This document shows positions 6,157 to 28,850 of a stretch of DNA of 58,762 bases, in pieces. The DNA lies in contig CAJTDE010000029.1 in the NCBI GenBank assembly GCA_910574835.1, positions 1 through 58,762 on the forward strand, in the 5' to 3' direction. Origin of the DNA: Clostridia bacterium (lineage in GTDB: Bacteria; Bacillota; Clostridia; Lachnospirales; Lachnospiraceae). Each line of letters opens with the position of its first letter. The stretch's first letter is position 1. The position numbers were made by a program, and so were the translations under genes. The notes under the pieces were generated by a model. That model had not been told where the DNA came from. It saw only the letters and a program-made list of their open reading frames with translations, and did no database searches.

Positions 6157-7488
6157 TCAATTTAACCGCCCAAACCCACTGTGGCAGACCGGACCCTCAA
6201 GATACGATTCCACAGTTTCATTCCTGCCGTTAATCTCCGTTATCATCCGGAATACTTCATCCACTTGCTCCAGATATTCTTTTATGATTTCTTCCGAATG
6301 GGCGTATGTGGTATAGAAGGCGTTGGATGCTATATAACCCCTCTTCAGCATTTCCTGTACAAAGAATGTCTTATAAACCAGACCGCTTTCTTTTCCTATA
6401 ATTGAAAAATGTCCTAACGGCCGGATTCCTCCTACTTCAATTTCAAGCTCGTTTTTTTCCGCTTTTTCTTTCCATCCGTCTTGAACCATCGTTCCATATT
6501 CGGCCTGCTTTTCCCATACCCTGTATTTCTGGTACAGTTCGATGTTCTTCAATGCCGCCGCAAATGCGATTCTCTCCGTATAGAAGGTGCTGCTGATAAA
6601 GGTTCCCTGGGATGCCTCCATCACTTCCTTCCGGCCAATAATGGCTGACAGAGGATAGCCGTTGGTCATTCCCTTGGCGAATACGGCTATATCCGGCTCC
6701 ACTCCCAGCACCTTATGGCTTCCTCCCGCACACAGACGGAAACCTGCCGTGATCTCGTCAAATACAAGGACTACGCCGGCTCTTTCTGTTTCCTTTCGTA
6801 TCTCTTCCAGAAATCCGTTTTCCGGATAGTCATTCCGAATCGGCTCCATCACAACCGCCGCAATCTTTCCCTCATGCTTTTTCATAAGGGTCCGGAACTC
6901 TTCAATGCAATTGTAATGGAAAGGAAGGTTTGTCCCTGCCAGGCCGGCGGGCACTCCCAAAGGCTCCAGGCCGGCTATGTGCTGGTCATTTAAGGCATTT
7001 TTATTTGCCAGGTTTGCGGACAGGTACCAGTCATGCCAGCCGTGATAGCCGCAGAACAGAATGATGTCCTTCTTTGTATACGCTCTGGCTATCCGGGAAG
7101 CCAACGCCATCGCCTCGCCGCCTGCTTTTGCATATCTCACCCCTCCCGCCCAGGGATGGAGCTTAATCAGCTCCTGTGCCAGATATACTTCTTCCGGCGC
7201 ATTTAAGGTGCTCATGCCCCCCTTATCAATGGCTTCTTTTGCTGCCGTATCTACTTCCTCATTAGCATAGCCGAGTACATTGGCTCCGATTCCCATGTAG
7301 CTGACGTCAATGTATTCTTTTCCGTCCAGATCCCAGATCCGGCAGCCCTTTGCCTTTGAATAGTAGGCCGGCCACAGCTCCGGGAGAAACATCTCCGGAC
7401 GCTTGCTTAACAGCTGTGTGCCCCCCGGTATTACCTTTTTTGCTTCCTGGTAAAGCCCCTGTCCCTTTCCTATTTCTATCCTGCTCAT
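6157..7488 (-). CDS. Class III (glutamate-1-semialdehyde aminomutase-like) aminotransferase
   Basis: A PLP-dependent class III enzyme of 443 residues. Visible are the N-terminal VIPGGTQLLSKRPEMFLP, the cofactor-region motifs FCGYHGWHDWYL and VLVFDEITAGFRL, and the Schiff-base lysine region VFAKGMTNGYPLSAIIGRKE. It resembles HemL but sits in a surface-sugar operon without other haem genes. Such HemL-like proteins recur in nonulosonic acid and flagellin glycan loci next to SpsF-type cytidylyltransferases and aldo/keto reductases. It probably aminates a sugar or an acyl substituent. The substrate is unknown. Confidence 0.82.
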   Translation of the reverse strand: MSRIEIGKGQGLYQEAKKVIPGGTQLLSKRPEMFLPELWPAYYSKAKGCRIWDLDGKEYIDVSYMGIGANVLGYANEEVDTAAKEAIDKGGMSTLNAPEEVYLAQELIKLHPWAGGVRYAKAGGEAMALASRIARAYTKKDIILFCGYHGWHDWYLSANLANKNALNDQHIAGLEPLGVPAGLAGTNLPFHYNCIEEFRTLMKKHEGKIAAVVMEPIRNDYPENGFLEEIRKETERAGVVLVFDEITAGFRLCAGGSHKVLGVEPDIAVFAKGMTNGYPLSAIIGRKEVMEASQGTFISSTFYTERIAFAAALKNIELYQKYRVWEKQAEYGTMVQDGWKEKAEKNELEIEVGGIRPLGHFSIIGKESGLVYKTFFVQEMLKRGYIASNAFYTTYAHSEEIIKEYLEQVDEVFRMITEINGRNETVESYLEGPVCHSGFGRLN

Positions 7489-26477: not shown

Positions 26478-27008
26478 TCATTCTTTTTTCCGAACAATCT
26501 CTATTCCAAGATGAAGGATTGTTTTTCGTTTCATAAATTCTACTTCTACCTCTGCTATGCGTTTATGAAGATTGATTTTCTGAATATGGCCCTCCATATT
26601 CTTTAAAGGCCCGGACAAAATCACAATGGCATCCTGTTCTGCCACTACCTGGGACAATCCCGCCTCGCTGCTTTCTTCTGCCCCTGCCCCGATGCCTGTA
26701 AGCTGCTCCAGCCAGTGAACCTCTTTCTCACTGAGAGCCGTGAATTGTTCTTTGTCTTTTCCCAACAGCTTTGTAAGCATTGGTACCTTCCGCAATTCCA
26801 AATACAGCTCCTGAACGGAATTGCTTATAATAAATACATATCCCGGAAGAAGTTTTTCATGCTGATCCTTCCATTCTCCATGAAACTTCTTTTTTACATG
26901 GCGTGTGGGATGAAAACAACGCTTGTATACTCCATTTTCTACTGTCTTCCGAATCAATGCTTCTGTCTTCTCTTCCATTCCCGGAGCTACTTGAATTACG
27001 TAATACAA
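26478..27008 (-). CDS. loaP: NusG-like transcription antiterminator, LoaP family
   Basis: A 176-residue specialised NusG paralog. The NGN domain starts MYYVIQVAPGMEEKTEALIR and contains LLPGYVFIIS (RNA-polymerase-contacting segment) with variable FHPTRHVKKKFHGEW. A KOW domain follows: QDAIVILSGPLKNMEGHIQKIN. LoaP proteins in Firmicutes promote read-through of long biosynthetic operons. The start codon is TTG at 27008, placed 8 bases after GGGAGG. It sits directly upstream of the polysaccharide operon and in the same orientation. Confidence 0.88.
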   Translation of the reverse strand: MYYVIQVAPGMEEKTEALIRKTVENGVYKRCFHPTRHVKKKFHGEWKDQHEKLLPGYVFIISNSVQELYLELRKVPMLTKLLGKDKEQFTALSEKEVHWLEQLTGIGAGAEESSEAGLSQVVAEQDAIVILSGPLKNMEGHIQKINLHKRIAEVEVEFMKRKTILHLGIEIVRKKE

Positions 27009-27363: not shown

Positions 27364-27870
27364 CTAGCTCTTCGCCACAATTTCCAACCCAACCTGCATT
27401 TCCTGAAAGTGTCCCGTCGACAGCATTCCTACTTGTGCAATCCGCTTATGCCGGTCAATCTTCCGAATCAGGTTCTCCCTGCCCTGAAGCGGTCCTTCCG
27501 TCACAACGGTCTGTCCGTTCCGGATATATCCTCTGGACATTCCAAAATGATGAGCTTTTCCACAAAATCTCCGGAGAAATTGCTCTTCCTCTCCGCACAC
27601 AGGCGTCAATGCACCCTGGCCGCCCAAAACAGTGAGAATACTCTGATACTGCTCTAACTCCTCTGCCAGTCTCTCCCCGTCCTCACTTTCCAGAAATACA
27701 TAGTCCGGAAACATGGACTGCCGCTCCACATGCCAGCTTCCCTCATACCGCCGCATCCGGTCATAAGTAAAGCAGAACGCATCCCTCAGTGCCTTATCCG
27801 TCAGATGCTTCCTGCAGGAGCGTATGATATCCTGCTCTTTATGATTCGGACAATAAAGTACATACCAGAT
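27364..27870 (-). CDS. Second NusG-like antiterminator (LoaP/UpxY type) with a non-canonical start
   Basis: Full-length NusG paralog of 168 codons. The NGN domain reads WYVLYCPNHKEQDIIRSCRK, then RQSMFPDYVFLESED; the KOW domain reads NGQTVVTEGPLQGRENLIRK. The first in-frame ATG (27756) would delete the first beta-strand of the NGN fold, which is clearly conserved upstream. At the position where the paralog has its TTG start, 8 bases after GGGAGG, this gene has ATC (27870-27868). Either ATC is used as a weak start or a former ATG was lost. It is the gene nearest to the invertible promoter, so it would be transcribed first. Confidence 0.75.
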   Translation of the reverse strand: MWYVLYCPNHKEQDIIRSCRKHLTDKALRDAFCFTYDRMRRYEGSWHVERQSMFPDYVFLESEDGERLAEELEQYQSILTVLGGQGALTPVCGEEEQFLRRFCGKAHHFGMSRGYIRNGQTVVTEGPLQGRENLIRKIDRHKRIAQVGMLSTGHFQEMQVGLEIVAKS

Positions 27871-27940
27871 AACAAGTGCCTCCCTTTCTACTTCCAGTAG
27901 TTTTATCTACGTCAAAAGTCATCCTCAATAAAGCCATTTT

Positions 27941-27964
27941 TTCGTAGAGCATGTTACTCTACGA
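27941..27964. repeat. Left inverted repeat of the invertible segment
   Basis: A 24-bp sequence whose reverse complement occurs exactly at 28161-28184. It is itself a dyad: arm TTCGTAGAG, 7-base asymmetric spacer CATGTTA, arm CTCTACGAA, with flanking T6 and A6 that extend the palindrome to 27937-27969. This arm-spacer-arm form is that of a tyrosine-recombinase core site. Confidence 0.9.
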
Positions 27965-28095
27965 AAAAATAACCCTAATTCTTATAAGTAAGGAAAAATA
28001 AATGAATACTTTTACGAATTAATAGACAAAATTAAAATAAAAACAGAAAAAATCTCTTGAAAAATGTACAAAAAAAGAGAAACCAAGAAAAAATG

Positions 28096-28124
28096 TTTAC
28101 GTTTTCAAGGATCTGTGCTATGAT
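28096..28124 (+). promoter_or_regulatory. Strong sigma-A-type extended -10 promoter inside the invertible segment
   Basis: The -35 box is TTTACG (28096-28101), the spacer is 17 bases, and the -10 box is TATGAT (28119-28124) preceded by TGC, an extended -10. Transcription would start near 28131 and run to the right. Rightward there is no convincing gene before the two-way terminator at 28357-28401, so in this orientation the promoter is idle or makes a short RNA. Confidence 0.8.
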
Positions 28125-28131
28125 ATTCAAG

Positions 28132-28159
28132 AAAAAAGCAGGAGATCTGCTCTCCTGCT
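28132..28159 (-). terminator. Hairpin with T tract at the edge of the invertible segment
   Basis: A perfect 9-bp stem AGCAGGAGA/TCTCCTGCT (28137-28159) is followed on the minus strand by TTTTTT (28137-28132). This makes an intrinsic terminator for leftward transcription in the present orientation. For the embedded promoter it forms instead a 5' hairpin at the start of the transcript. In the OFF state it would block read-through into the operon from the right. Confidence 0.75.
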
Positions 28160-28160
28160 A

Positions 28161-28184
28161 TCGTAGAGTAACATGCTCTACGAA
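28161..28184. repeat. Right inverted repeat of the invertible segment
   Basis: Exact reverse complement of 27941-27964. The spacer here is TAACATG between CGTAGAG and CTCTACG arms. The outermost base of the left arm (28160, A) differs from the perfect dyad. Confidence 0.9.
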
Positions 28185-28208
28185 CAAAAAGTTCCACACA
28201 TTTCCAAT

Positions 28209-28340
28209 TCATTCCAATTTCAGGATAAATGCATCATTCTTCCGATCTTTCGGTTCCAACATTATGTCATATCTTCCTAAACCGCTTTCCCACCATTCCT
28301 TGATAAACATGATTTTATCAATATAAAATTTTGGCCCATA
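28209..28340 (-). pseudogene. Remnant of an AAA-ATPase-like/PD-(D/E)XK (DUF1703) gene
   Basis: An in-frame stretch of 43 codons between two stops encodes FIKEWWESGLGRYDIMLEPK and DRKNDAFILKLE. The ESGxGRYDxMLxPKD...AFILxxK pattern is the nuclease-like C-terminal motif of the AAA-ATPase-like/DUF1703 family that is abundant in Lachnospiraceae. Those proteins are over 500 residues; nothing else of the gene is visible. It is a decayed fragment beside the inverton. Bases 28185-28208 and 28341-28356 hold nothing recognisable. Confidence 0.6.
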
Positions 28341-28356
28341 TTACAACGAAATTTAC

Positions 28357-28401
28357 AAAAGGCCGTCCCCCTTCTCGCCCTGAAAAGGAAACGGCCTTTT
28401 T
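28357..28401. terminator. Bidirectional intrinsic terminator
   Basis: AAAAGGCCGT at 28357-28366 pairs with ACGGCCTTTT at 28391-28400, with T runs on both strands. Leftward it ends the DUF1540 gene; rightward it would stop transcripts from the inverton promoter in its present orientation. Confidence 0.88.
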
Positions 28402-28429
28402 ATAGCAATTATAAATCAAAAACTACCAT

Positions 28430-28750
28430 CTACTCACATTTACACCGGAAAGTTGCACATTCCGTCTCCTGACACTCGCAGGCAGAACCCCCGGCAATTC
28501 CAATATGCTTTGCATGGCAGACGCAATTCTCATTAAAAGTACACTCCTCCGCCTTACAGGACACTTTTGTCTCCTTAGTGGGATAATCTACGGAACTCTG
28601 GTAATTACCCTCGCCTCTCTCCCGGAAGCTGCTGCAGCAGGTATCCTTGGAATGCTTGGCATTGTTGCCCTCCACCTGAATATTATCCTTACAGCAGCTC
28701 TTCTCCTTGTTATACATGCAGCTTGTTACGGTACAGTCTAATCTTGTCAT
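28430..28750 (-). CDS. DUF1540 cysteine-rich protein
   Basis: A 106-residue protein with two copies of the DUF1540 cysteine pattern: LDCTVTSCMYNKEKSCCKDN near the N-terminus and VSCKAEECTFNENCVCHAKH near residue 65, ending in CECQETECATFRCKCE. The spacing suggests metal binding. Function is unknown; such proteins are common in spore-forming Clostridia. The ATG at 28750 has GGAGG 9 bases upstream. An ATG two codons earlier has too short a spacer. A weak promoter (TTGATA, TATAAA) lies about 55-85 bases upstream. Confidence 0.85.
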   Translation of the reverse strand: MTRLDCTVTSCMYNKEKSCCKDNIQVEGNNAKHSKDTCCSSFRERGEGNYQSSVDYPTKETKVSCKAEECTFNENCVCHAKHIGIAGGSACECQETECATFRCKCE

Positions 28751-28850
28751 GTTCATCTACCTCCATAAAAATATAGAAGTAGTATGTGCAGATTTGCCCT
28801 GTTTATACCTAAAAAGCCGGAATATCAAATCCATTTTCTTATCGAAAAGC

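Follow-up and report, generated by a model that had tools for sequence, protein, structure and literature searches.

A putative invertible promoter segment, apparently caught in the OFF orientation, ahead of a LoaP-headed polysaccharide operon in Lachnospiraceae

INTRODUCTION

The capsule promoters of Bacteroides fragilis are invertible and are associated with Mpi, a serine recombinase, and with UpxY and UpxZ. The locus described here lies in a window of 58,762 nucleotides (the whole stretch of DNA analysed, contig CAJTDE010000029.1 of the Lachnospiraceae assembly GCA_910574835.1). It resembles the Bacteroides arrangement in that a short, putatively invertible promoter precedes the gene for a NusG-paralogue antiterminator heading a polysaccharide operon, and in that there are several loci per genome, with apparently one enzyme for many sites. 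It differs in its hosts, which are Lachnospiraceae, in its antiterminator family (LoaP, not UpxY), in having its own palindromic site and an apparent ATC start, and in its candidate enzyme, which is a tyrosine recombinase. Moreover, a second LoaP gene stands where Bacteroides has UpxZ, and a terminator would flip along with the promoter.

Invertons in Clostridia are already known. The accessible part of PMC11892184 describes UpxY genes that adjoin invertons and ties UpxY antiterminators to groups of Bacteroidota; it also describes an inverton group (139) and an invertase group (35) from gut Clostridia, with tyrosine-type recombinases. Two examples of group 139 are ~205 and ~228 bp long, and shifts in their orientation were measured over passages. 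Our locus, with its TCGTAGAG-N7-CTCTACGA sites, is likewise a clostridial segment with a candidate enzyme of the tyrosine type. In Clostridioides difficile, the Cdi switches act on a cell wall protein and on flagella (PMC5903667), and Cdi switches or RecV are the subject of three further papers (PMC5386303, PMC2784873, PMC8890394). From the accessible parts of these papers, the shared traits are Firmicute invertible segments before surface operons, several switches and a master recombinase, whereas the Cdi switches described there precede no LoaP capsule operon.

According to the accessible text of PMC12691694, LoaP recognises an RNA hairpin with a UNCG loop in the leader of its target operon. 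As in those systems, two genes of our locus, loaP1 and loaP2, pass the LoaP cut-off and head a long biosynthetic operon; unlike the LoaP gene described in that text, loaP1 is the first gene behind a putative invertible promoter and has an apparent ATC start, and a simple stem scan located no UNCG hairpin of the recognised kind between loaP1 and loaP2. A preprint (PMC13174815), again as far as its accessible text goes, links inversion at short repeats near loaP to changed capsule expression in the CPS of Eggerthella lenta. Short-repeat inversion near a LoaP gene is common to both cases, but the E. lenta events are megabase inversions of whole clusters at 16-bp GATAAGCGCGGTTATG repeats, and that text reports no recombinase adjoining the breakpoints and does not mention an 'invertible promoter'. 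Among the literature matches listed (subscription papers and supplements being outside reach), we found no description of a Lachnospiraceae polysaccharide operon that is headed by LoaP and preceded by an invertible promoter; we would say only tentatively that the LoaP-headed, terminator-carrying, ATC-started, multi-locus form is absent from the literature.

RESULTS

Site architecture of the segment. Two exact inverted copies of 24 nt, 196 bp apart, enclose the segment, just as an earlier note on this DNA had claimed.

27941-27964, no strand assigned: left (operon-side) 24-nt arm, with the site TCGTAGAG-CATGTTA-CTCTACGA at 27942-27964
28161-28184, no strand assigned: right (distal) 24-nt arm, with the site TCGTAGAG-TAACATG-CTCTACGA at 28161-28183
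27965-28160, no strand assigned: putatively invertible body, 196 bp

This is the longest exact inverted pair in the whole window at distances of 60 to 450 bp, while 40 dinucleotide shuffles reached at most 14 nt. The earlier note had placed the start at 27937; the repeat is real, but the exact arm runs from 27941 and the earlier start takes in a few flanking T. The arms are, moreover, each palindromic around a 7-nt spacer, a feature beyond the earlier note, and we take this palindrome to resemble the core site of a tyrosine recombinase. The spacer of the right arm, TAACATG, is exactly complementary to the CATGTTA of the left arm.

A promoter and a terminator within the body. The body carries two putative signals of opposite effect.

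28096-28124, plus strand: putative promoter TTTACG-17-(TGC)TATGAT with an extended -10, pointing away from the minus-strand operon
28159-28137, minus strand: predicted intrinsic terminator with a 9-bp stem and a T run, facing the operon now and away from it after inversion

The promoter is the one previously described as facing away from the operon, and a consensus scan of 27870-28700 listed no promoter-like site on the minus strand, in keeping with the further claim that no comparable promoter faces the operon. By itself the scan does not rise above chance (three sites found versus 1.8 expected). The promoter is credible because its extended -10 marks the start of the 30 nt that are best conserved across 11 aligned class A bodies (10 loci, L226 being entered twice), not because of its scan score; these bodies, and those of class B, were picked by promoter-like patterns and complementary spacers, a choice that favours such a result. 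The 12 class B bodies have a different promoter, TTGAAA followed by TATAAT, within their most conserved stretch. These 11 class A and 12 class B bodies thus each hold a conserved putative promoter that could face a gene in one of the two orientations.

The terminator, which the earlier note did not include, folds at -15.4 kcal/mol (z -3.7), and none of 200 shuffles was equally stable. It shares one body with the promoter, and therefore the two would swap together upon inversion. In most of the class A cassettes inspected by eye, the same end has a comparable stem and T run, the latter interrupted in L073 and weak in L227; the class B cassettes show no evident stem of this kind.

The operon and its flank. 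The genes on either side of the segment are as follows.

27364-27870, minus strand: loaP1, LoaP-family NusG paralogue, gene 1 of the operon (NCBIfam NF033641, 132.9 bits, cut-off 125)
26478-27008, minus strand: loaP2, a second, more canonical LoaP gene (NF033641, 154 bits, cut-off 125)
138-27870, minus strand: polysaccharide operon, taken as one operon from gene order and strand
28430-28756, minus strand: gene for a DUF1540 cysteine-rich protein (tblastn, PF07561), a flank marker common to L062, L073 and L226
28357-28400, no strand assigned: imperfect GC-rich hairpin with T runs on both strands, seen by eye between the DUF1540 gene and the segment

From 27870 to 138, a span of ~27 kb, every likely gene is on the minus strand, and the operon may be longer because the contig ends at position 1. 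Its cargo comprises a sugar transferase, glycosyltransferases, LicD, PEP mutase, phosphonopyruvate decarboxylase, an Fe-ADH and a Polysacc_synt protein, together with PseB, PseC, PseG, PseI, WbqC and MBOAT. PseB, PseC, PseI, PseG, PEP mutase and phosphonopyruvate decarboxylase pass their NCBIfam equivalog cut-offs, and the earlier assignment of a pseudaminic acid and phosphonate cargo is thereby borne out with curated models; PseF- and PseH-like genes score below the NCBIfam cut-off. The hairpin at 28357-28400 is possibly a two-way terminator; it is missing from the output of the terminator scan.

Both antiterminator genes belong to LoaP by NF033641, which loaP1 matches over its full length (profile positions 1-166 of 166). 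The UpxY profile NF033644 gives 27.5 bits for loaP1 and 46.6 bits for loaP2 against a cut-off of 100, and we rejected an assignment of the locus to the UpxY family. Of the 13 loci that have a close loaP1, 10 carry a second LoaP reading frame behind it; this frame is absent at L005 and L057, and the sequence of L073 ends soon after loaP1. A simple stem scan for UNCG-loop hairpins gave one candidate, inside loaP1 at 27575, and found no hairpin of the LoaP-recognised kind in the gap between loaP1 and loaP2.

The start codon of loaP1. We infer an ATC (27870-27868) as the start of loaP1; an SD-like GGGAGG lies 8 nt before it, and its position, 70 nt past the left arm, agrees with the ~70 bases given before. 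The conventional ATG call, 27364-27756, is shorter than this frame. Initiation at AUC is likely because the codon is conserved, keeps a regular distance from the SD-like run, is the only start available in some of the genes and directly precedes the W at which the LoaP profile begins. Specifically, ATC directly precedes the conserved W(Y) in 19 of 19 loaP1 genes (the genus plus assemblies G098 and G099), and in the 16 genes inspected an SD-like purine run ends 6 to 8 nt ahead of it. In 6 of the 19, the open frame, followed for up to 40 codons upstream, offers no table 11 start other than this ATC; an in-frame ATG, GTG or TTG lies further upstream in 6 of 19 (L061, L064, L169, L172, L173 and L227). 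The preceding codon is variable, and isoleucine codons inside loaP1 genes are ATT (87), ATC (37) and ATA (27). Among three genes from other genera, two (L235 and L236) have ATC and one (L234) has ATG. L169 has AGG where the others have TGG, and this gene may be degenerate.

Further cassettes in the genome and in relatives. Three more site pairs were found in the source genome.

C9:145687-145929: exact site pair, directly upstream of a LoaP gene
C10:60444-60706: site pair with one mismatch, directly upstream of a LoaP gene
C1:382876-383097 (L007 9377-9598): variant pair with CGCAGAG/CTCTGCG arms, one site having further changes

At C9, at C10 and at the window locus (C29) the LoaP gene comes directly next; the genes at C9 and C10 share 66% and 64% identity with loaP1, respectively. 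The C1 variant precedes a gene that by eye resembles a signal peptidase and genes for secreted-looking proteins; it also adjoins a regulator with a BTAD domain. Among the matches listed from a three-mismatch scan of the genome, those besides the C10 and C1 pairs were mostly noise.

Of the 98 genomes searched, 7 contain the exact single-site pattern. A scan of genome contigs for the paired pattern, set without a spacer condition, gave 52 stretches, of which 15 have the same arm type and come from records titled Lachnospiraceae, Lachnoclostridium or Clostridia. In all 15 the spacers pair with no mismatch, and the spacer sequence differs from locus to locus. No spacer is common to two cassettes within any of the six genomes in which at least three cassettes were read (G000, G002, G004, G012, G013 and G098). 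Several cassette-bearing records presumably stem from mouse gut catalogues, judging from their names. The other 37 stretches belong to other lineages or arm types and are by eye mostly unrelated repeats; complementary spacers also occur among them, at L142, L143, L148, L161 and L168. Pairs of the type TCATAGAG-N7-CTCTATGA, some with changed arms, are seen at L148 (1052-1294), L142 and L166, the last with one spacer mismatch; the hosts are a Paenalcaligenes plasmid and two Clostridiales assemblies. Four lone sites in viral contigs were judged to be chance.

In relatives, the cassette precedes LoaP or TnpB-like genes. A protein search with LoaP1 that made no use of the sites (E of at most 1e-38) found six genes in 4 of 250 genomes of the family, and a site pair lies upstream of every one of the six, across four genera. 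In G002, one cassette (L058 5465-5707) lies upstream of genes with GGDEF (c-di-GMP) and Trans_reg_C domains, its promoter facing away, and at another (L063 4768-4790, G002:C57) the contig stops one base past the recombination site, which may be an assembly break caused by both orientations.

Orientation among cassettes. The evidence for inversion is comparative and comes from related genomes and assemblies. Orientation was called from the conserved class promoter, except at L234 (the same locus as L057), where the best match, TTGACA-17-TACGAT, was used. Both orientations occur among the 22 cassettes linked to loaP1: 16 are OFF (the window, L005, L006, L060, L061, L062, L064, L065, L067, L068, L070, L073, L129, L169, L173 and L227), four are ON (L172, L225, L235 and L234), L226 holds both junctions and L236 was called neither OFF nor ON. 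Ten cassettes that do not lie beside loaP1 were kept out of this count (L007, L056, L058, L059, L063, L066, L069, L071, L072 and L147). An expectation that about half would be ON was not borne out. The three LoaP cassettes of the source genome are all OFF, their class promoter facing away, and the C1 cassette shows a small directional difference (9 versus 8 matches of 12). In L006 and L070, another promoter match (10 of 12) faces loaP1.

When flipped, the L172 body scores higher in all 15 comparisons made; the difference is clear against class B and only slight against class A. Loci of a second type include L059 (OFF) and L069 (ON), whose flanks are collinear (800 of 1,004 aligned) and whose bodies match well only when one is flipped (174 of 189); L147, of the same type, is ON, and L072 was called neither way. 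The shared DUF1540 gene (79% identity) marks L226 as the ortholog of the window locus; L062 and L073 carry this flank at 97 to 98%. The order in L226 is DUF1540, site, body with OFF junction, a single N, body with ON junction, site and loaP1, and over 235 nt one body is the exact reverse complement of the other. The L226 sample probably contained both forms, because one chromosome without a duplication cannot hold both junctions. It is also possible that this scaffold is an assembly artefact. The comparison of related genomes, which the earlier note had proposed as a check, thus gave both orientations, and its claim of an invertible segment gains from these opposite orientations, from the two junctions of L226, from the paired spacers and from a co-occurring recombinase that adjoins a cassette in two genomes.

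A candidate recombinase. The genome has 35 PF00589 and 34 PF00239 matches, and three of the former and none of the latter were profiled across the genus. Of the three, the best candidate for the enzyme is L045.

G000:C15:86240-87274, outside the window: L045, tyrosine recombinase of 345 aa with an open frame, its neighbours by eye being sugar-nucleotide-like genes

Orthologs with at least 61% identity occur in G002, G004, G005, G007, G012, G013, G098 and G099; the other genus members tested reach at best 44% across most of the length (G003) and 49% within a piece of 131 residues (G011). With a loose paired-site pattern, set after variant cassettes in G005 and G007 had come to light, cassettes were found in 10 of 18 genomes. 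An L045 ortholog is present in nine of these 10 and in none of the eight genomes without a cassette (Fisher's P of 4.1e-4, a value that ignores shared ancestry). The exception is G006 (83% complete), which has a cassette and in which no L045 ortholog was found. G027, from another genus, was kept out of this table; its site pair is ~390 bp apart, beyond the pattern, and its closest homolog has 47% identity. The gene also adjoins the cassette: in G005, 15 bp separate the recombinase gene from the cassette, which precedes loaP1 in the ON orientation, and in G007 the distance is ~100 bp, the recombinase frame there being broken into two parts. The candidate, named by co-occurrence and adjacency, is a tyrosine recombinase; serine recombinases, the type to which Mpi belongs, also occur in the genome, outside the profiled set.

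Two small recombinases, which we assume to be of RecV/FimE size, were rejected because they do not track the sites: P0002 has a single clear relative (G004, 52%), and the best match of P0001 outside G000 is 35% (G027), the rest being about 32% or less besides short pieces. No match was found between own-genome recombinases from the motif script and the first 22 of 30 inverton loci at E 1e-4; the adjacency in G005 and G007 comes from loci beyond these. Two further tyrosine recombinases, L026 and L034, are conserved in the four genus members compared (G000, G004, G006 and G012), and either may be the enzyme. Three adjacent tyrosine recombinase genes (G000:C37:35216-37692; frames of 341, 345 and 411 aa) are probably a mobile element, and recombinase frames of similar length cluster in G002:C88 and G013:C8.

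TnpB-like genes beside LoaP. In four genomes, a TnpB-like gene lies between the cassette and the LoaP gene.

L069/L175 4585-5721, L059 4888-6024, L072 5260-6636 and L147 5867-7006: TnpB-like gene between cassette and LoaP gene

Such a gene also stands beside LoaP in G003 and G008, where the loose site-pair pattern found no cassette, and L181, L182 and L183 belong to the same set. The L175 copy scores 49 bits against NCBIfam guided_TnpB (cut-off 100) and the L072 copy 22 bits against IS200_TnpB; Pfam gave no match, and a search for PDB relatives gave none that was credible (one chance match, E 0.59). The AlphaFold model has a mean pLDDT of 53.5 and a pTM of 0.29. Three of the four cassette-linked copies stop before what we take to be the RuvC-III region, and L181 and L182 are without the presumed RuvC-I aspartate. 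The protein may be nuclease-dead and domesticated.

A conserved noncoding block precedes LoaP at L069 (~6400-6480), with equivalents in L059, L072 and L147. By eye it forms a UUCG-loop hairpin in L069 and L059, the loop being changed in L072 and L147; this hairpin is missing from the output of the simple stem scan. It recalls the LoaP recognition hairpin in the accessible text of PMC12691694. The block may be a LoaP-type hairpin, and we therefore dropped its reading as a guide RNA; matches between guide and target for a presumed omega-RNA amounted to three 12-nt matches in the examined loci and were judged to be chance.

DISCUSSION

Our results suggest that the segment is an inverton flipped by a tyrosine recombinase acting in trans, which would switch a LoaP-antiterminated polysaccharide operon ON and OFF; we consider this highly probable, and the segment very probably flips in the source strain. 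We infer that the segment controls the operon and that the present orientation is OFF. The recombinase would act on the two inverted palindromic sites and flip the 196-bp body between them. In the OFF form, the promoter would fire away from the operon and the terminator would block read-through towards it; in the ON form, the promoter would face the operon with a leader of ~120 nt ahead of loaP1 and the terminator would point away. LoaP1, and then LoaP2, may carry RNA polymerase through the long operon, such that one flip combined with antitermination would give all-or-none expression of the surface polysaccharide. The site pairs at three further loci of the genome, two before LoaP genes and one before a signal-peptidase-like gene, would be served by the same recombinase. 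It is probable that one recombinase serves several switches, because the same kind of site pair recurs at these three loci.

It is possible that the segment was invertible in an ancestor and is now locked OFF, its recombinase lost or silent and the operon cryptic. OFF is indeed the state of each of the three LoaP cassettes in this genome and of 16 of the 22 overall, but it could be simply the majority state under the sampled condition, the arms and complementary spacers are intact, and an open 345-aa candidate recombinase is present; we regard a locked segment as improbable. Less probable still, and in our view very hard to sustain, is that the repeats are terminators or protein-binding palindromes that do not invert, the outward promoter making a regulatory RNA. 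Each arm is itself a hairpin and one orientation is common to most cassettes, as such a function would have it. However, related loci stand in opposite orientations, L226 holds both junctions within one assembly, the spacers vary and yet pair, a recombinase adjoins the cassette in two genomes and, among loci inspected by eye, no one gene regularly lies in the path of the outward promoter.

A different doubt concerns the enzyme and not the inversion. The cassette may invert mainly through a recombinase outside the L045 family, to which we give a minor but real chance: nearly all of the PF00589 and PF00239 matches of the genome lie outside the profiled set, two PF00589 genes are conserved in the four genus members compared, and G006 has a cassette without L045. 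Against this, only L045 of the three profiled tracks the sites, and it adjoins the cassette in two genomes. An inverton driven by a trans-acting tyrosine recombinase, with L045 as the leading candidate, is thus the reading that we favour.

Taken jointly, these observations could mean that several Lachnospiraceae genera run a multi-locus surface-polysaccharide switchboard whose origin is independent of Bacteroides. Its cassettes would each hold a promoter or, in one class, a promoter plus a terminator, flipped by one tyrosine recombinase family, with 7-nt spacers unique to each cassette that pair only with their own partner; each cassette would drive a LoaP gene whose weak AUC start throttles or gates the antiterminator, and at other loci a degenerate, apparently nuclease-dead TnpB-like gene between cassette and LoaP may add RNA-guided control. 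We put this wider reading forward tentatively, as one about which doubt slightly outweighs confidence.

If AUC initiation is real, gene calls based on ATG, GTG or TTG cut such antiterminators too short. The conserved putative AUC start codon is directly testable and, together with a named candidate recombinase, is a further yield of this analysis. The combination of the site pair and LoaP would provide a sequence signature for phase-variable polysaccharides in uncultured Lachnospiraceae. If the switch operates as proposed, the capsule design of Bacteroides, in which an invertible promoter is joined to a NusG paralogue, would also have been reached in Clostridia, with different parts.
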